This document shows, piece by piece, positions 6,236 through 20,173 of a stretch of 20,173 nucleotides of DNA; position 1 is the first letter of the stretch, and each line of letters begins with the position of its first letter. The DNA comes from a virus, in the IMG/VR virus record IMGVR_UViG_3300047546_001065, positions 1 through 20,173 of that record. One strand, given 5' to 3'. Under the pieces are notes generated by a model, which saw only the letters and a list, made by a program, of their open reading frames with translations, was not told the origin of the DNA and ran no database searches. The translations under genes were made by a program, and so were the position numbers.

Positions 6236-6244
6236 ATTTTATCA
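6236..6244 (-). promoter_or_regulatory. Extended -10 promoter (TGATAAAAT)
   Basis: The minus strand reads TGATAAAAT, ending 8 bases before the ATG of the LamG-like gene. It overlaps the stop region of the preceding oxygenase gene. There is no Shine-Dalgarno in the 8 bases, consistent with a leaderless start. Confidence 0.45.
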
Positions 6245-6751
6245 TACAATGCGTGTAAACCATCTTGGAGAGGTATATCTGGTACCTTTTAAGATTGGTT
6301 TAACACCATGCACAAAATTTTCATTATCTGGAAAACAAACTAAGTCTCCTGCTTTTGGTTTTATTGATATATTGTATGCTGGAAAGTATATCTCTCCTCC
6401 ATCATAGTTGTCATTAAGATAAATAAGGGTAGCAATGTCATTTGGCCTATTTACATCAAAATGTTCGTGCATACCAAATCCCTCTGTAAATCTAGCCACA
6501 TGTGTTTTTGATTCATCATACGGTTCAAATTGACCTTCGTAATTATTTTTAACAAATGACATTGTTGAGTTTCCATAAAAATTTAAAAGCCTTAATACAT
6601 CTGGGTTATTAAATGAAGCAAAAAAAGTAAATTCTTTTTCTCCATTTCCATATTCTATAAAGTTAGAATCAATAGATGCTGCGTACTCGGAGATTAATCT
6701 TGCGTCTTCTGGATCCATAAATCTAGAAGTATGTTTGATTTGATCAATCAT
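6242..6751 (-). CDS. 2OG-Fe(II) oxygenase, prolyl-4-hydroxylase-like
   Basis: A 169-residue protein whose C-terminal half is a clear double-stranded beta-helix oxygenase core. It has HFD at 97-99 (iron ligands His97, Asp99), then YLNDNYDGGEIYFPAY, PKAGDLVCFP, the distal iron ligand His148, and Arg158 in GTRYTSPRWF, which would hold 2-oxoglutarate. All expected catalytic residues are present. Enzymes of this type hydroxylate proteins or small molecules using O2 and 2-oxoglutarate; the substrate is not evident. Its start overlaps the end of the 201-aa oxygenase-like gene by 8 bases, so the two are probably co-translated. It lies directly before the LamG-like structural gene, making a virion protein a possible substrate (inference). 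Confidence 0.87.
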   Translation of the reverse strand: MIDQIKHTSRFMDPEDARLISEYAASIDSNFIEYGNGEKEFTFFASFNNPDVLRLLNFYGNSTMSFVKNNYEGQFEPYDESKTHVARFTEGFGMHEHFDVNRPNDIATLIYLNDNYDGGEIYFPAYNISIKPKAGDLVCFPDNENFVHGVKPILKGTRYTSPRWFTRIV

Positions 6752-7349
6752 AAAAACCCTTTATTTCCCAATCATCCCATTGAACCTGCTCGTATGGAGT
6801 TCTATTAGGCATCCATAACTGTCCCTTTGTTCCCATCCATGCTTCAGACACAAACATTTCTCCATCAAGAATTGGACTAATTCCATGTTTATCTTTTTCA
6901 GATTCTTCAAAAATAAATAAATCTCCTGGAGTAGCAATAATTTCAAGGTCGTGATTTGGAAATAGAATGTGTCCTCCAGATTTTGCATTTTGCCAAACAA
7001 TATAAGACCCATATGTATTTGCTGGTTTATCCATATTAAAATGTGGCTCTGACTCTCCACCATTTCTATAACGTGCAATATAATGTTTTGAAAACATTGG
7101 TGGATGATAATCTAGTTCTGATTCTGATTGAACTGCTTCATAGAAACCCCTTGAATATTTTGAAAATATTTCTAAAATATTATTTGGCATCTCTCCACGT
7201 GTATGAATATCAAATTTTGTACCTTCATTTTCAAATAATGCATCATGTAGGGGATCGTGTTCTTCTCTAGTATTAAACTTAATTGTAGCAATATAGTTTT
7301 GTATCGTTTTTAAGTCTTCTTCATTTATAAAATTTCCAATAAGTTTCAT
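6744..7349 (-). CDS. 2OG-Fe(II) oxygenase-like protein with altered active site
   Basis: A 201-residue relative of the neighbouring oxygenase. The core can be aligned: EPHFNMDKP (102-110), SGGHILFPNHD, TPGDLFIFEES, His155 in KDKHGISPI, and GEMFVSEAWM (163-172). Where the functional neighbour has HFD, this protein has HFN, so the acidic iron ligand is Asn105. Where Arg normally binds 2-oxoglutarate there is Met165. It may be catalytically inactive, use a different cofactor geometry, or act as a partner subunit of the overlapping 169-aa enzyme. It starts only 2 bases after the ribonucleotide reductase stop and overlaps the next gene by 8 bases, so all three are probably on one transcript. Confidence 0.8.
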   Translation of the reverse strand: MKLIGNFINEEDLKTIQNYIATIKFNTREEHDPLHDALFENEGTKFDIHTRGEMPNNILEIFSKYSRGFYEAVQSESELDYHPPMFSKHYIARYRNGGESEPHFNMDKPANTYGSYIVWQNAKSGGHILFPNHDLEIIATPGDLFIFEESEKDKHGISPILDGEMFVSEAWMGTKGQLWMPNRTPYEQVQWDDWEIKGFYD

Positions 7350-9469: not shown

Positions 9470-9598
9470 TTAACTAAAATTAAAACTTCTTGGATGCTTA
9501 GGCTCACATCTTTTGCATTGTGTAAGTTTAATTCCAGTCACTGGGCATGTAGCAATATCTAAATCATGACCAAATAAAAAACAGATCAATTTTTTCAT
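9470..9598 (-). CDS. Small DUF1660-like zinc-binding protein
   Basis: A 42-residue gene read directly from the sequence: ATG at 9598, stop at 9470. It begins MKKLICFLFGHD and continues with a CPVTG stretch and a CKRC pair, so it carries Cys6, His11, Cys18, Cys28 and Cys31. This pattern resembles the short DUF1660 prophage proteins (start MK.LIC.LFGH, ending in a C-x2-C knuckle) whose function is unknown; zinc binding is inferred from the cysteines. The ATG overlaps the stop of the upstream 212-aa gene by four bases (ATGA), supporting real coupled translation. The extended first loop and basic tail (KHPRSFNFS) differ from typical members. Confidence 0.72.
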   Translation of the reverse strand: MKKLICFLFGHDLDIATCPVTGIKLTQCKRCEPKHPRSFNFS

Positions 9599-10233
9599 AA
9601 TTCTATCCATCCATTACCAAGGCCATCAACTGCTGGTGCTATGTCATAAGCAATTGTAATTCTTGGTTTGTCTTGATACCAGTCATCTCTACCGTGTGGA
9701 TGTCCAGTTTCAGAAACAATTGCCCTGTTGTTTTTATTAATGTTTTCAAATGAATCAATACCATTAATCTTATAAAAAGTAGATGATGGCTCTGCATTTA
9801 CGCAGTAATATCCATGAAATACTGGAGCACCCTCTCCGCCCATATGGTCATGAAAGAATCTTTCATTCTTTAATGGATTAACGCCACTAGTTCCAGTTGT
9901 CTTTGGATCATAATTGAACCAACCCTTAATTGCAAATTTATTTGCCTCAAAATCAAGACCATAATATTCTGATGCCTCAATCATGATATCCTTTAGTGCA
10001 AATTTTAGTTTCTGAACTGATGGATGCGTAAAATTAAAGATATTATAGTATTTGCCAAGTTGCGTAGCAGCACCATTATTTTTATTATATTTTGATAATT
10101 CCTCTGTGGGAATTTCTGTAAGGGTTCCTGCAAGAAGTTCATCTTGTTTCATTTCAAGATACGTGTACATTTCATCTAGATTATTATCTAGAAATCTGTC
10201 AAAAAACTTATGTGGTGGCTTCATTGCAATCAT
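9595..10233 (-). CDS. 2OG-Fe(II) oxygenase-like protein, second of a tandem pair
   Basis: A 212-residue paralogue of the gene just upstream. Shared features in order are an N-terminal PHKFFDRFLDNNL segment, a helical middle, a GWFN strand (104-107), FHDHMGGEGAPVFHGYYCVNAEPS (127-150), NNRAIVSETGHPHG (168-181) and PRITIAYD (190-197). The HDH and GHPH motifs could supply iron-binding histidines and Arg191 could bind 2-oxoglutarate. The layout resembles the 2OG-Fe(II) oxygenase superfamily, but the first motif reads H-D-H rather than classical H-x-D. It starts by ATGA overlap with the upstream paralogue and ends by ATGA overlap with the DUF1660-like gene. The substrate is unknown. Confidence 0.72.
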   Translation of the reverse strand: MIAMKPPHKFFDRFLDNNLDEMYTYLEMKQDELLAGTLTEIPTEELSKYNKNNGAATQLGKYYNIFNFTHPSVQKLKFALKDIMIEASEYYGLDFEANKFAIKGWFNYDPKTTGTSGVNPLKNERFFHDHMGGEGAPVFHGYYCVNAEPSSTFYKINGIDSFENINKNNRAIVSETGHPHGRDDWYQDKPRITIAYDIAPAVDGLGNGWIEL

Positions 10234-10895
10234 GCTAAAGGAATCCAGTGTTGCTCTTGTGAGGATCCAAAACGCATAATATCTTTAAGTGGAATTACAT
10301 CATATGCAACTGTAATTCTAGGACCATCCCAATCCCAATCTGCCATTGCGTGTGGATGTCCCATTTCGGACAAGATTGCACGGTTGTTAGTATTATAGTT
10401 TTCTACATACTTATCAAATGCCTTATAGTGTGTTATTGATGGTTCTGCATTTACACAATAGTATCCGTGAAAGTTTGGTGCTCCAAGTGGTCCATGATCG
10501 TGCCAATCTAACTTGCCCTTTTTAGTATGATTAATATTAAACCAGCCCTGTAGCATATATTTTTGTTCATCAAAATCGATATCGTAATATTCACATGCTT
10601 CCTTAACCATGTCAGACACGGCAAGGTATAGATGATAAATTTCTTCAATATGGAACTGGAAGACGTTGTACTGTCTCCATTTCATGGTTGAAACACTATT
10701 AGATGATTTCCAAATCTCATTATCTGTAACAGGTGTTACACCAGTTACCTGTGCCTGTTCAATTTTTTGGTATCTGTCTTGTAGTTCTCCTGCTAGACGA
10801 ACCAAATCATTATTAAGGTATCTTTCAAAAAATCTATGTGGTTGTGTGGACTTACTGACGCTTTGTAGTCCTTCTGTTGGAAAGTCTTCCATCAT
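10230..10895 (-). CDS. 2OG-Fe(II) oxygenase-like protein, first of a tandem pair
   Basis: A 221-residue protein. Motifs are PHRFFERYLNNDL (19-31), YMLQGWFNINH, LDWHDHGPLGAPNFHGYYC (129-147), NNRAILSEMGHPHA (170-183) and PRITVAYDV (192-200). Candidate iron ligands are His132/His134 and His180/His182, with Arg193 for 2-oxoglutarate. This is a plausible oxygenase fold with an HxH-type first motif. The downstream gene is a clear paralogue, probably from tandem duplication, with the core better conserved than the N-terminal linker. The start at 10895 has GGAG with a 6-base spacer; a second in-frame ATG follows immediately. A TATAAT box overlaps the end of the sulfotransferase gene. Confidence 0.75.
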   Translation of the reverse strand: MMEDFPTEGLQSVSKSTQPHRFFERYLNNDLVRLAGELQDRYQKIEQAQVTGVTPVTDNEIWKSSNSVSTMKWRQYNVFQFHIEEIYHLYLAVSDMVKEACEYYDIDFDEQKYMLQGWFNINHTKKGKLDWHDHGPLGAPNFHGYYCVNAEPSITHYKAFDKYVENYNTNNRAILSEMGHPHAMADWDWDGPRITVAYDVIPLKDIMRFGSSQEQHWIPLA

Positions 10896-10918: not shown

Positions 10919-10924
10919 ATTATA
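10919..10924 (-). promoter_or_regulatory. Probable -10 element before the oxygenase pair
   Basis: TATAAT in the context GGTGTATAATAG, 23 bases before the ATG at 10895. It overlaps the stop codon of the sulfotransferase gene. With GGAG in the leader it would give a conventional short 5' UTR. Confidence 0.45.
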
Positions 10925-11639
10925 CACCATTTAAAGACTTATGTTCATTGGTTTTTATATAATCATATAAATGATAATCAATACTATTTAACTCTTCAAT
11001 GCGTGATTTAATGCTTTTGGGAATATCAAATTCCAGTTTTGAGGATTCGTTTATGGGATGTCTTTGATTAAACAACGAAAACCCATAATCCTTTTTACTA
11101 ATGTCTGAAAGCCAATCTAATAATGAATCAATGTTTTCCAAAGATACGACTTTTATTCTGTCTATTTTGTCTGTTATTTTTTTGATATCAGACTCATAGT
11201 TTTCAATCATCCATCCGTTGGCAACAATTTCTGGTCTTGTAGCAGCATTCCAGCGATCTTTATTAGATGAACCAGTCAAAAACCTAGATTGTATATTTCT
11301 ATGATTTTCTGAAAACACTGGATCGTAAATCCATTTTTCAAGTAATTCTATTGTTGGTTTGGTATAAAATACATACTCAGAGAAAAAATTAAAGGTGCTT
11401 ATAAACCTTTGAAATGGGTCACGCACCACCGAAAATGAGCAAACATCTTCTAAGATAGTTTCTGGATAGCAACCAATATGTCCAAAAATATATTTAGATG
11501 TTTTTAATTTGTCATCATCAATTTTATTTTTTTGAAATACAAGTGAATAATTAATTCCCCTACTATTTAATAATGAAGTAATAGGGGAATGAATAAATGT
11601 ACCTGCAGTTCGGGGGATATGATTATGATAATAAATCAC
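10920..11639 (-). CDS. Sulfotransferase family protein
   Basis: A protein of about 239 residues. Near the N-terminus is HIPRTAGTFIH, matching the PAPS 5'-phosphosulfate loop of carbohydrate/heparan-type sulfotransferases (typically HIPKTGGTS), with Arg replacing the usual Lys. The 3'-phosphate-binding SVVRDPFQRFIS motif follows about 60 residues later, and NIQSRFLTG fits the region after it. Such enzymes move sulfate from PAPS to hydroxyl groups on sugars or proteins. No signal peptide or membrane helix is visible, so it is probably cytoplasmic. The longest frame starts at TTG 11645, but the GTG at 11639 has GGGGGA 8 bases upstream and is preferred. The gene begins 15-30 bases after the FN3/Hint gene and precedes the oxygenase pair. 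Confidence 0.8.
   Translation of the reverse strand: MIYYHNHIPRTAGTFIHSPITSLLNSRGINYSLVFQKNKIDDDKLKTSKYIFGHIGCYPETILEDVCSFSVVRDPFQRFISTFNFFSEYVFYTKPTIELLEKWIYDPVFSENHRNIQSRFLTGSSNKDRWNAATRPEIVANGWMIENYESDIKKITDKIDRIKVVSLENIDSLLDWLSDISKKDYGFSLFNQRHPINESSKLEFDIPKSIKSRIEELNSIDYHLYDYIKTNEHKSLNGV
11554..11590. repeat. Inverted repeat inside the sulfotransferase gene
   Basis: ATTCCCCTA (11554-11562) and TAGGGGAAT (11582-11590) form a perfect 9-bp inverted repeat with a 19-base loop, within the first 90 bases of the sulfotransferase reading frame. Together with the start-site hairpin it places two strong stems at the beginning of this mRNA. Confidence 0.4.
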
Positions 11640-11655
11640 TCTCAATATCCCCCGA
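11610..11655 (-). promoter_or_regulatory. Hairpin covering the sulfotransferase ribosome binding site
   Basis: On the minus strand CGGGGGATAT (11654-11645) is perfectly complementary to ATATCCCCCG (11620-11611). One more T-A pair outside makes an 11-bp stem. The 5' arm contains the GGGGGA that would serve as Shine-Dalgarno, the loop of 24 bases contains the GTG start, and the 3' arm encodes the Ile-Pro-Arg of the PAPS-binding loop. If formed, it would block initiation until opened, for example by a ribosome finishing the upstream gene. Confidence 0.55.
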
Positions 11656-11669
11656 CTATTTGATAAATC

Positions 11670-13049
11670 TTAATAATACTTCATATTGTGCATAACTAGA
11701 TTTCCTGCAAGGAATGTATCGGCATCTTCGCAGTCAAATCTGAATGTATTTGCATCTCCTTCAATCTGTTGTACTGTTTGAATAAGTACTTCAGAGAAGG
11801 CATCATGCTCATATGAATATTCAAGTACATAATCTCCTGGTTCTAATGAACCTGATAGAACGTACATGTAAGCACCATTACGCTTTGTAAGAACTGGTTG
11901 ATTAAGTGAGAACTTCTTAGAAACTTCTCCATTAATTGTCATTGTTACAGTCTTTGGTTGTGGTGTCTTAGAAATAACCTTTGTTTTACGTATTTCTAGA
12001 TTTGTAATTGTTGGAGAAGACCATTCTAGCGAAGAATCAAATCCTTCATCTAAGTACTCAGCCCATACAACACCCCATACTTCGTCTCCAGGTTGAACTT
12101 CACTTGCTGGCTTTGTTCCATATCCTCCAGTTTCAGTAACAACTGAGATTAATGTGTTTTCATCAACGCATCCTCCAAATGAGAATGGAGAGAATCCGAA
12201 TACACCGAATGGAGAGAATCCAAATGGTGAGAATCCGAACACACCAAATGGTGAGAATCCGAATGGTGAGAAACCAAACACACCGAATGGAGAAAAGCCA
12301 AACACTCCAAATGGAGAGAAACCAAATGGTGAGAAGCCGAATACGCCGAATGGTGAGAATCCGAATACACCGAATGGTGAGAATCCAAACACTGAAAATG
12401 GTACGAATGAAAATGTAGTGGTTGTTGATGAATAATCAGACCATTCACCATATCCATCAGTATTTCTAGCACGTACACGATATGCTTGTGCTGTTCCACC
12501 TTCTTGGTTTACGTTTGTAGATGTTCCAGATACCGTTCCAGATTTTCCATCATTTGATTCCCACTGGTAATCAATAATTGCTGATCCACCATTTTCAGGT
12601 GCTGACCATGAAATTGTATCGTATGATACGTTTGATGGTGATGATGCAGATGGCGCAGATGGCTTTCCTGGAAGTCCAGTAACATTTTGTGATCCACCTG
12701 AAACTTCAGTTGAAGTAACTGTTGTATTTGATTGTCCAATTGTAGCATTTGCCTTAATCTTAAAAGTCCATGATGCACCAGAGCGCAATCCTGTAACTCT
12801 ATAAGGGGATGTGGTTGCTGTGAAGGTTCTATCTCCATATGTTGCATTGCTTGCAGTAATTGTGTATGAAGATGCTGTCGATCCAATACCAGTTCCTGGC
12901 GTAAAGTAAACATCATAATCACCACTTAAATATGATACACCAACACGGACTACAGATGTAATAACTGGGTCTGCTGGTTGAATACCCCAGTATCTAATTG
13001 TCTGCTTTGCAGACTTAGATGCTTTACCACCCTTACGAATAATTCCCAT
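11670..13049 (-). CDS. FN3 - FG-repeat - Hint domain virion protein
   Basis: A 459-residue protein of four parts. Residues 1-26 are a basic leader. Two fibronectin type III-like domains follow (about 27-118 and 127-212; the second has VSYDTISWSAPENGGSAI and AYRVRARNTDGYGEWSD). Residues 213-293 are a strict aromatic tract of FSPFGVFG and FSPFG units. Residues 294-459 look like a Hint (intein/Hedgehog-type) self-processing domain: CVDENTLI (block A, Cys294), ASEVQPGDEVWGV, SLNQPVLT (block B position), LEPGDYVLEY, and FRFDCEDADTFLAGNLVMHN (blocks F/G, ending His454-Asn455), followed only by MKYY. The block B His appears to be Gln384 and the residue after HN is Met, so splicing looks unlikely, while cleavage or Cys-based attachment is possible. 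FN3 domains are common in phage tail proteins, and the fibre genes lie just upstream. Confidence 0.8.
   Translation of the reverse strand: MGIIRKGGKASKSAKQTIRYWGIQPADPVITSVVRVGVSYLSGDYDVYFTPGTGIGSTASSYTITASNATYGDRTFTATTSPYRVTGLRSGASWTFKIKANATIGQSNTTVTSTEVSGGSQNVTGLPGKPSAPSASSPSNVSYDTISWSAPENGGSAIIDYQWESNDGKSGTVSGTSTNVNQEGGTAQAYRVRARNTDGYGEWSDYSSTTTTFSFVPFSVFGFSPFGVFGFSPFGVFGFSPFGFSPFGVFGFSPFGVFGFSPFGFSPFGVFGFSPFGFSPFGVFGFSPFSFGGCVDENTLISVVTETGGYGTKPASEVQPGDEVWGVVWAEYLDEGFDSSLEWSSPTITNLEIRKTKVISKTPQPKTVTMTINGEVSKKFSLNQPVLTKRNGAYMYVLSGSLEPGDYVLEYSYEHDAFSEVLIQTVQQIEGDANTFRFDCEDADTFLAGNLVMHNMKYY
12171..12413 (-). repeat. FSPFGVFG / FSPFG coding repeat tract
   Basis: This DNA encodes residues 213-293 of the FN3/Hint protein. 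It holds six FSPFGVFG units and three FSPFG units in irregular order, flanked by a divergent first unit (FSFVPFSVFG) and last unit (FSPFSFGG). Synonymous codons differ between units (Ser TCA/TCT, Gly GGA/GGT, Phe TTT/TTC), so the units are conserved mainly at protein level. The plus-strand readings of this tract (Asn/Gly/Glu/Pro-rich) are shadows. Confidence 0.9.
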
Positions 13050-13074: not shown

Positions 13075-14535
13075 TTAAGCAGTTAGGTCGCCTGTAACGA
13101 TCCAAGTATTTGTATCACGCTTGACTGCAGTTGCTGCTGAGTATTGAGCACGTAACTTCAATCCAGGTGTGTAGAGCACTGTTACCCCAGATGCTCCAGC
13201 GATTGTTACTTGTCCTGTTCCACGTTGGAAAATATCAATTGCACTTCCGATTGGGAATGCTACTGATGCATTTGTAGGAATTGTAACTGTTGTTGCAGAT
13301 GAAGATGTAGCCTCAACCATGTTTGTAGCATCTGACAATGCAAGTGTATAACTTGCTGATTGTGCATTGAATGCTACAAGTGTTGCTGCATCTAATTCTG
13401 TCTTTGTTGCCTTAGTTGCAAGTGCAGCAGTAACTGTTGATGCATAGTTTGCATCGTTACCAAGTGCTGTTGCTAACTCATTAAGAGTATTTAGTGTTGA
13501 AGGAGCAGATGCAACCAAATCAGCGACTGCTGTTGATACGAATGCTGTTGTAGCAATCTGTGTTGTATTTGTTCCTGCTGTTGCTGTAGGTGCTGTAGGT
13601 GTACCAGTAAGTGCTGGTGATACCAAAGGTGCCTTAGCAGAAAGATCTGTTGTAAGATTTGTGATCTTATTTTGTGATAATGTTCCGCTAATCTTAGCAT
13701 CTGTTACAGAAGCATCTGAAGGTGTTCTTGTATCTGTTAGACGTGAGTCATTTGTGTAAACAAGATTTGTTGTGTCTGTAATACCGTGAACATTTGTTGT
13801 ATCTGAATTATGAGTTGAAATTGCTGCTGCTGATGCAACTCCTGCTGCAGTCTCTGCTGCTGTTGCCTTTGTAGAAGCATCTGCTGCTGCTGTTGCTACT
13901 GCTTGATCAATTGCATCATTCATTGCAATAGTAACTGCATCATCAATTGCATCATTCATAGCAGTTGTTGTAACGAGAACTGTTGTATCTGCAATACCAT
14001 GAACATTGTGGCTTGCATTGTGTGCCGATAATGAGTCTGCAGATAAATCTACTGCAGATTGAATTGTTGTCTCAAGTGCGGTTGTAAGGTTAGTATTTGT
14101 TACTAATTCTGCTGTATCTGCAATCCCGTGAACACTTGTTGTGAGTGCATTGTGTACTGATAATGCACCCTCAGTATTTGTAAGAGCAGTCTGTGCAGCC
14201 TGAACTGCATCTGCAATTTCTTTAAGAGTATCTAGTGCTTCTGGTGCTGAATCAACAAGGTCTGCTAATTGACCAAGTGGGATTCTTCCAAGCGAATTAA
14301 GTGTTGCTACACCGTTTGGCACACCCTTTTCTGTTAATGGGATATAGTCGTCAAGTGTTCCACCTAAGTCTTCTAAATTTTTGAAGTAGGAGAGGTCTGA
14401 CCATGCGTTAACGCCATCACCAATCTTAAATTGGCTGGTATCTGTTTCAAATCCAATTTCTCCTGCTGCTAAAATTGGGTCTGCGTCAGTCCATTGCTGA
14501 GCAGTACCTCTGCGTTGCTGCATTCTTGTTGCCAT
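13075..14535 (-). CDS. Tail fibre protein with Mtd-like N-terminal domain
   Basis: A 486-residue fibre protein. It opens with MATRMQQRRGTAQQW...LAAGEIGFETDTSQFKIGDG, a virion-attachment domain also seen at the N-terminus of the Bordetella phage major tropism determinant and many other fibres. The middle contains three copies of a S-x-HN...VHGI(A/T)DT motif, Ala/Thr-rich helical stretches, and the common fibre phrase APLVSPALTGTPTAP...TTAFV. The C-terminal 80 residues are beta-rich (IGSAIDIFQRGTGQVTIAG ... TNTWIVTGDL), a frequent phage fibre or head-decoration ending. The in-frame ATG at 14565 is rejected because AAGGAG (14545-14550) sits 9 bases before the ATG at 14535. Host recognition is the likely role. 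Confidence 0.85.
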   Translation of the reverse strand: MATRMQQRRGTAQQWTDADPILAAGEIGFETDTSQFKIGDGVNAWSDLSYFKNLEDLGGTLDDYIPLTEKGVPNGVATLNSLGRIPLGQLADLVDSAPEALDTLKEIADAVQAAQTALTNTEGALSVHNALTTSVHGIADTAELVTNTNLTTALETTIQSAVDLSADSLSAHNASHNVHGIADTTVLVTTTAMNDAIDDAVTIAMNDAIDQAVATAAADASTKATAAETAAGVASAAAISTHNSDTTNVHGITDTTNLVYTNDSRLTDTRTPSDASVTDAKISGTLSQNKITNLTTDLSAKAPLVSPALTGTPTAPTATAGTNTTQIATTAFVSTAVADLVASAPSTLNTLNELATALGNDANYASTVTAALATKATKTELDAATLVAFNAQSASYTLALSDATNMVEATSSSATTVTIPTNASVAFPIGSAIDIFQRGTGQVTIAGASGVTVLYTPGLKLRAQYSAATAVKRDTNTWIVTGDLTA

Positions 14536-14544
14536 GTTTTTTAT

Positions 14545-14550
14545 CTCCTT
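14545..14550 (-). promoter_or_regulatory. Ribosome binding site deciding the fibre start
   Basis: AAGGAG, 9 bases before the ATG at 14535. It lies downstream of the alternative ATG at 14565 and so favours the shorter product. Confidence 0.7.
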
Positions 14551-14565
14551 ATGGGTGCTACCCAT
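14551..14565 (-). promoter_or_regulatory. Small hairpin in the fibre gene leader
   Basis: ATGGGT-AGC-ACCCAT on the minus strand is a perfect 6-bp stem with a 3-base loop, directly 5' of the Shine-Dalgarno. It may stabilise the mRNA 5' end or tune translation. A comparable leader hairpin precedes the plus-strand lysozyme gene. Confidence 0.4.
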
Positions 14566-19146: not shown

Positions 19147-19710
19147 ATGATTAACTTTATGAATGATAAAAAGCAAATCATTGGCGTACTCAGCATTCTT
19201 TTGATGTTTGCTGTATGGTCAAACTCTGCAAACGCAACAGACGTGCTTATTAATAATAATATAAGTACAATTCAACCTTCGGAAGCACCTGTGTCCTCGC
19301 AAGAGGACCTAGTTGTTTCTAGGGCAGAAGATAAATTAGCAAAATATCGAAACTATACAACCTTAACAGATCTTGAACTAAAGGATTTATTATGGGCTGT
19401 TGGTTTTAGAGGAAAGCACCTTGTAGAGGCCTGGGCTGTTGCTAAAAAGGAATCTAATGGAAGACCTTTGGCTTTAAATCAGAGCCATAGGACTGGAGAT
19501 AGTTCGTTTGGACTATTTCAAATCAATATGATTGGAGACCTTGGGCCTGATCGTAGAGAGAAGTTCAATCTAACTGCTAATGCCGAACTATTTAATCCTG
19601 TATTAAATGCCGATGTTGCATTTTATATGTCACATGGGGGAGATGATTGGTCTTCTTGGCATGGATTAACACCAAGGACAAAAGAACTCATGAAACAGTT
19701 CCCAAACTAA
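19147..19710 (+). CDS. Secreted lysozyme-like transglycosylase/muramidase
   Basis: A 187-residue protein with a clear Sec signal peptide: MINFMNDKKQ, a hydrophobic core (IIGVLSILLMFAVW) and an SANA cleavage site after residue 30. A linker with Ser/Pro/Glu follows to about 60. The catalytic domain carries AVAKKESNGRPLALN with the likely acid Glu102, then GDSSFGLFQINM (117-128), the signature of the lysozyme-like/SLT transglycosylase fold, and ends near WSSWHG. It would cut peptidoglycan glycan strands outside the membrane. It is the only plus-strand gene, with its own strong promoter, leader hairpin and terminator. It could be a signal-peptide-exported lysin for release, or another wall-acting enzyme; no holin is seen beside it. 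Confidence 0.87.
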   Translation: MINFMNDKKQIIGVLSILLMFAVWSNSANATDVLINNNISTIQPSEAPVSSQEDLVVSRAEDKLAKYRNYTTLTDLELKDLLWAVGFRGKHLVEAWAVAKKESNGRPLALNQSHRTGDSSFGLFQINMIGDLGPDRREKFNLTANAELFNPVLNADVAFYMSHGGDDWSSWHGLTPRTKELMKQFPN

Positions 19711-20173
19711 ACAGCAAATGATATAAGCACATATTTTGTACCACTTATGACTGGTATAACCCTATGAAGGTACTCTGGAAAAGATGGAAACATCAACAGA
19801 GTACCTTTTTTAGGTTTATAGGGTGATCCAACAAAATTCCTAAATTCAATTTCTCCACCCTCATAGTCATCGTTTATATAAAATACAAAAGATACTTTTC
19901 TTTTATTTTTTGCATCTCCGTCTGTATGCCATGTTAAAAATTCTGTATCTGCATACCTAACTAATCCCCATCTTTCACGTTTAGATATGCCTGGTGAAAA
20001 TGATTTGATATAGTCCATGGATGGTTCAAAAATTATTTTATCTATTTTTGCATTTAATAATTGTTTTTCTTTAACAAAATCTGGTCCAAAAGTATAGTCA
20101 TTTGGGTGTGTGTGTAGCCAAAAAGCGGTAGATGTGACCTTGTGTCTATCTTCCTCATAGTTATTTATTGTAC
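19707..20173 (-). CDS. 2OG-Fe(II) oxygenase, P4H-like, 5' end outside window
   Basis: The frame is open from the right edge, giving about 154 visible residues; an internal ATG at 20018 is only part of the gene. Upstream of that Met the frame continues with AFWLHTHPNDYTFGPDFVKEKQL, so the real start lies beyond the window. Counting from Met(20018), the iron ligands are His31 and Asp33 in WHTDGD and His85 in EYLHRV. YINDDYEGGEIEFRNF and KKGTLLMFPS fit the P4H core, and Lys95 in SGTKYVLISF may bind 2-oxoglutarate. It is the fifth oxygenase-like gene of the window and looks catalytically complete. Its stop overlaps the stop of the convergent lysozyme gene by three bases. Confidence 0.85.
   Translation of the reverse strand, partial: TINNYEEDRHKVTSTAFWLHTHPNDYTFGPDFVKEKQLLNAKIDKIIFEPSMDYIKSFSPGISKRERWGLVRYADTEFLTWHTDGDAKNKRKVSFVFYINDDYEGGEIEFRNFVGSPYKPKKGTLLMFPSFPEYLHRVIPVISGTKYVLISFAV
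19767..19811 (+). terminator. Intrinsic terminator of the lysozyme transcript
   Basis: AAGGTACTCTG (19767-19777) and CAGAGTACCTT (19797-19807) form a perfect 11-bp stem with a 19-base loop, ending in six T (19806-19811). It sits 57 bases after the lysozyme stop codon, inside the coding region of the convergent oxygenase. The minus-strand side lacks a T-run, so termination should act on rightward transcription only. Confidence 0.78.

Follow-up and report, generated by a model that had tools for sequence, protein, structure and literature searches.

A C-terminal Hint domain, probably self-processing, in a family of adhesin-like phage proteins with variable repeat tracts

Introduction

The closest described counterparts of the phage protein treated here come from several systems. 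A-type BIL domains have a Hint fold with a Cys at position 1 and a C-terminal His-Asn, lack a nucleophile at position +1 and reside in variable host proteins. In Hedgehog proteins, the C-terminal Hint domain (Hog) begins with a Cys and is accompanied by a sterol-recognition region, and the upstream part is the functional product. Class 1 inteins, among them those of RecA, DnaB, RadA and CDC21, possess a C-extein with Cys, Ser or Thr at +1. Their only omnipresent residues are an initial Ser/Cys and a terminal Asn/Gln/Asp, and active inteins devoid of the block-B His or of the penultimate His exist (PMC7664689). A bulky residue at position −1 can stand in for the block-B His, and CDC21-1 inteins are without this His (PMC6333167). 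In Erwinia and Dickeya jumbo phages, a low-complexity, collagen-like virion protein carries a C-terminal Hint domain (PHROG 38766) and sits in an annotated set of virion structural and tail genes. Autoprocessing of the BIL or Hog kind is known. In the open-licence literature searched, such a use in adhesin-like phage proteins whose repeat tracts vary seems to be undescribed, and no account of phage adhesins with a C-terminal Hint domain turned up there.

The gene and its parts

The window, i.e. the whole stretch of DNA analysed, comprises 20,173 bases of a virus contig. On its minus strand, which encodes all parts described below, lies a gene for a 459 aa protein (11670..13049, from ORF and translation) composed of two FN3-like domains, an FG tract and a Hint domain. 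The first FN3-like beta domain (12675..12977; residues ~25-125, boundaries approximate) is defined by two Pfam fn3 stretches and by AF2 strands at residues 29-123 with high pLDDT, the second (12414..12671; residues ~127-212) by a Pfam fn3 match at residues 130-209 (E 2.5e-5) and by AF2. With two stretches, an E-value of 2.5e-5 and 24.8 bits, the fn3 match of the entire protein narrowly missed the cut-off of 25 bits. In AF2 modelling of the full-length protein, residues ~25-210 form beta domains with confidence; the two FN3-like domains proposed in a sequence-only reading of this DNA are present. Directly upstream, a tail-fibre gene (13075..14565, minus strand) encodes an Mtd_N domain, found in Pfam/PHROGs scans, and a C-terminus ending in GDLTA.

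The FN3 domains are followed by a low-complexity tract (12177..12413; residues 213-291) built of FSPFG and VFGFSPFG units, in which VFGFSPF recurs. Its tandem repeats were confirmed computationally; its length is 79 aa and not 81 as had been read. As a monomer, the tract has a pLDDT below 50 in the AF2 model. In a comparison with the relative L010 over these 79 codons, dN was 0.000 and dS 0.815; with L014, the values were 0.006 and 1.17. Since dN is near zero although synonymous sites are almost saturated, the tract is not a product of drift, and its exact repeat sequence is conserved in the clade. Against L010, dS was 0.64 in the FN3 part and 0.6-0.8 across FN3 and tract, but 0.17 in the Hint segment. 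This difference between Hint and FN3 parts suggests module recombination and a mosaic history of the gene.

Opposite the tract, an ORF of 93 aa (12154-12435, plus strand) encodes NGENPNTP repeats that mirror the tract codons; it is probably not a gene. Several 2OG-Fe(II) oxygenase-like genes are found near the Hint gene (6242-7349, 9595-10895 and 19707-20171). Pfam matches were above the cut-off for 6242-6751 and 19707-20171 and weak for 6744-7349; the other two calls were made by eye. A Sulfotransfer_2 gene (10920-11645) is located close by. It is conceivable that the oxygenase and sulfotransferase products modify the Pro- and Ser-rich tract.

Identification of the Hint domain

With the single sequence, scans of Pfam, NCBIfam and PHROGs yielded no Hint match, and a profile was therefore required for detection. 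A profile of 26 relatives matched inteins and one BIL in the PDB at E ~1e-5 (best 2.5e-5). The AF2 model of residues 285-459 reached a pLDDT of 90.9 and a pTM of 0.86. In Foldseek, this model matched the Tetrahymena BIL2 at 1.7e-7, and in VIA, Z was 18.1 for BIL2, 17.0 for the Hint domain of Hedgehog (1at0) and 17-18 for the inteins of RecA and DnaB. Cys294 (model residue 10) aligns with intein residue 1 and with Cys258 of 1at0, and Asn455 with the last Asn of the RecA intein. Judged from these models, the C-terminal 166 residues almost certainly adopt a Hint fold, with the domain proper spanning residues 294-455 (11685..12170). Both the landmarks and the length of 166 residues from Cys294 to the end had been read correctly from the sequence. 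Structure prediction, named beforehand as the test on which the Hint assignment could fail, returned the horseshoe-like all-beta fold.

The predicted junction between tract and Hint domain is Gly293-Cys294 (12168..12173), Cys294 being Hint position 1 according to the structure alignment. The domain closes with His454-Asn455 (11685..11690), as seen in the sequence as well as in the structure and family alignments. Beyond Asn455, the translation contains only the four-residue tail MKYY (11673..11684), with neither a +1 nucleophile nor a C-extein. Since no C-extein exists and residue +1 is Met, a splicing intein was ruled out. Membership in the Hedgehog (Hog) group was rejected as well, the protein stopping four residues past Asn455, and so was a polymorphic-toxin PT-HINT, as no toxin domain is located C-terminally of the Hint domain.

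Comparison with the known systems

Like A-type BILs, which are among the best VIA matches (BIL2, 6y75; Clostridium thermocellum BIL, 2lwy), the phage domain combines the Hint fold, Cys1 and a C-terminal His-Asn, here followed by Met456, with the absence of a +1 nucleophile and with variable host proteins. In contrast to them, it is located near the C-terminus and preceded by a repetitive tract, its block B reads Ser-x-x-Gln, and its cleavage is only predicted. With Hog (Z 17, Cys258 in register) it shares the C-terminal position and the N-terminal Cys, but it has no sterol-recognition region, and the N-terminal domains are unrelated. Fold and terminal residues resemble those of class 1 inteins, whereas C-extein and +1 Cys/Ser/Thr are missing. 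The jumbo-phage protein of PHROG 38766 is similar in joining low complexity to a C-terminal Hint domain; yet, its Hint is canonical (Cys, Thr-x-x-His, His-Asn), its repeats are collagen instead of an FG tract, and identity is ~22%. The same Hint structure is found in UniProt/BFVD entries of uncultured Caudovirales named Fibronectin type III, PASTA_pknB or Hint domain, names that are automatic only. The match of these structures (e.g. A0A6J5MFV5, TMq 0.86, 33% identity) means that family members are already present in databases.

A family with clade-specific active sites

A tblastn search with the whole protein against annotated phages found no match. Clade alignments were used to scan viral contigs because the alignment of 26 sequences was too divergent. 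The tract retrieved 177 relatives, of which 80 were kept. Scans by Hint clade retrieved 25 sequences in the Gln clade, to which the 459 aa protein belongs, 19 in a second clade and 217 in the Ser1 clade (80 kept), and one Ser1-type domain gave 62 matches overlapping the earlier sets. A scan of genome contigs with a Ser1-type Hint detected no relative. Annotated phages have related Hint domains on one intein-labelled protein and on the collagen-like virion proteins of jumbo phages of Erwinia, Dickeya and Yersinia. The search for the same architecture in aquatic phages, suggested at the outset, uncovered a large family, many of whose members belong to uncultured aquatic phages and adjoin tail-fibre genes.

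By its sequence, the 459 aa protein is a member of this large, uncharacterized family, in which FN3 repeats or a PASTA domain at the N-terminus are followed by a low-complexity tract and a Hint domain. The tract type varies by lineage (FSPFG, FGAFGAF, FFAPPG, VTPVTP, TPTPTP, FFPPFFP). In nearly all complete members, the Hint domain is C-terminal and followed by a tail of 1 to 39 residues; 18 proteins end in HNK*.

Active sites were surveyed in 112 unique aligned Hint domains, including those of jumbo phages, which are related sequences and not independent events. Without exception, position 1 is Cys (53) or Ser (59), and the same holds for 17/17 further complete domains; the 459 aa protein with Cys294 follows this rule of the Hint superfamily. 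At the other end, 105 domains close with Asn or Asp; in class 1 inteins, these first and last positions are the omnipresent ones. Written as position 1, block-B pair and last two residues, the signatures are Cys/T-H/H-N (21/112), Cys/S-Q/H-N (16/112, the clade of the 459 aa protein), Cys/S-H/H-N (1/112), Cys/S-E/Y-x (15/112) and Ser/(S,T,V)-H/x-D (59/112). Catalytic columns are mostly invariant within a clade, the exceptions being the last residue in the Glu clade and the penultimate one in the Ser1 clade; median column entropy is 1.3-2 bits.

In the 459 aa protein, sequence and family alignment place Ser381-Leu-Asn-Gln384 (11898..11909) where the textbook block B has Thr-x-x-His. Owing to this alteration, its activity is uncertain. 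The −1 residue is bulky (Y, I, F, L, V) in 14/15 members of the Glu clade and Gly in 16/17 of the Gln clade. Because Gly293 occupies this position in the 459 aa protein, compensation by a bulky residue is unavailable to it.

Gene neighbourhood, paired Hint genes and host

Among the carrier contigs, 22/32 contain a pair of Hint matches that share a strand and are separated by roughly 6-12 kb, and in the relatives a fibre gene ending in GDLTA precedes each of the two Hint genes. G001, a near-identical phage, encodes as the partner a protein with a PASTA domain, TQN repeats and a Hint domain (L214:9786-11258), ~7.3 kb upstream of the FN3 gene. The Hint of this partner is canonical, with Cys, Thr-x-x-His and His-Asn, and its C-terminus is HNFIIAK; the window ends before the counterpart of this gene. 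In 5/9 pairs, a phage's own two Hint domains resemble each other more than they do their positional counterparts in other phages, a pattern as in lineage-specific duplication or gene conversion. At another locus, a PASTA gene with a Cys-rich end precedes a Hint-like ORF that is detached and degenerate and lacks the first Cys (L218:420-2723, the ORF at 2196-2723), probably a decayed copy.

Gene order next to the fibre genes, together with the FN3 and PASTA domains, points to a putative tail-adhesin role of the adhesin-like 459 aa protein, and it is gene order that suggests incorporation of the family into the virion. Streptomyces phages of the Stanwilliamsviridae have portals 45-48% identical to the one encoded here. 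With Coruscant and Yaboi, the window shares a gene order that runs from transglycosylase through ribonucleotide reductase, LamG-type protein and portal to protease; the LamG label stems from the Coruscant annotation, and the large protein at that place here has no Pfam match. Portal identity and shared gene order make an actinobacterial host plausible.

Relatives without a Hint domain

Six relatives (G033-G038) contain at the same locus an FN3-tract gene whose product ends in FSPAFNFAPWG, i.e. at the junction. On their contigs, the A1 profile produced matches to the tract end only and nothing credible as a Hint. The PASTA gene of G034 likewise stops at its tract (EASFNFSP). Some relatives can therefore do without the Hint domain, and a product that stops close to the junction is viable. 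These homologues fit a removal of the Hint domain in the other phages; alternatively, they could be ancestral forms and not equivalents of a cleaved product. L027, considered as a further Hint-less relative, was dropped, since its gene runs off the contig.

Proposed mechanism and alternatives

On balance, the 459 aa protein is probably a tail-fibre-associated, adhesin-like protein with a C-terminal self-processing domain resembling A-type BILs, which would release or transfer the adhesin with its tract. An N-to-S acyl shift at the Gly293-Cys294 peptide bond would yield a thioester. Resolution by water would liberate the FN3-tract part with loss of the Hint domain, whereas resolution by another nucleophile would transfer this part; the functional virion product would be FN3-FN3-tract. 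The conservation pattern and the Hint-less homologues make self-processing the best explanation. For the family as a whole, autoprocessing is likely. For the 459 aa member with its Ser-x-x-Gln block B, activity is given only a slight preference, and what counts against it is that the block-B His, essential in many inteins, is replaced by Gln in the clade of this protein and by Glu in another. The earlier proposal that the Hint domain releases or attaches the FN3/FG part is thus upheld in part: the Hint is real, a nucleophile lies at the junction with the FG tract, the family is fibre-adjacent and homologues ending at the junction fit, but the block-B His is Gln and no bulky −1 residue is available. 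Furthermore, N-terminal cleavage alone leaves the retention of His-Asn, and of a short tail bearing Lys/Arg at +2, without an explanation.

The loss of the block-B His in two clades, and of the penultimate His or the last Asn in others, would suit a decayed autoprocessing domain retained as an inert structural cap, i.e. as a tip, oligomerization or binding module. The detached L218 copy without Cys and a tail too short for C-terminal processing to matter point the same way. Yet no complete copy lacks the Cys or Ser of position 1, the catalytic residues hardly vary inside a clade and shift in concert between clades, and some related phages dispense with the domain, so that an inert cap appears rather unlikely.

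A bolder version of the chemistry would use the thioester for covalent transfer of the FN3-FG or PASTA-tract C-terminus to a fibre protein, a tail Lys or a nucleophile of the host envelope, a Hedgehog-like ligation on a phage tail with an active site that differs by clade (Cys/Thr-x-x-His/His-Asn, Cys/Ser-x-x-Gln/His-Asn, Cys/Ser-x-x-Glu/Tyr-x, Ser/Ser-x-x-His/x-Asp). This is regarded as unlikely.

It is quite improbable that the C-terminal Hint domain serves to help the low-complexity tract fold or assemble and is then cut off, or retained, after assembly, a role comparable to that of the auto-cleaved intramolecular chaperones of tail spikes. Such a helper would match the invariable position of the domain behind a repetitive tract of varying type and the extreme constraint on the tract's amino acid sequence, but no structural sign of trimerization emerged, and phages lacking the Hint domain nevertheless produce a comparable FG tract. 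That the domain is the remnant of an ordinary mobile intein deprived of C-extein and endonuclease, as the same fold and conserved termini might suggest, is hardly credible given its occurrence in many lineages always near the C-terminus, the lack of a +1 nucleophile, the conserved short tails such as HNK*, two paralogues per phage and no visible homing endonuclease region.

Concluding remarks

If self-processing holds true, receptor-binding modules of phages would join the few natural uses of Hint chemistry. The family constitutes a natural series of active-site variants for which the Hint-less homologues serve as controls. Protein engineering could gain new domains for cleavage or ligation from this family, and it may account for tail maturation in uncultured phages.
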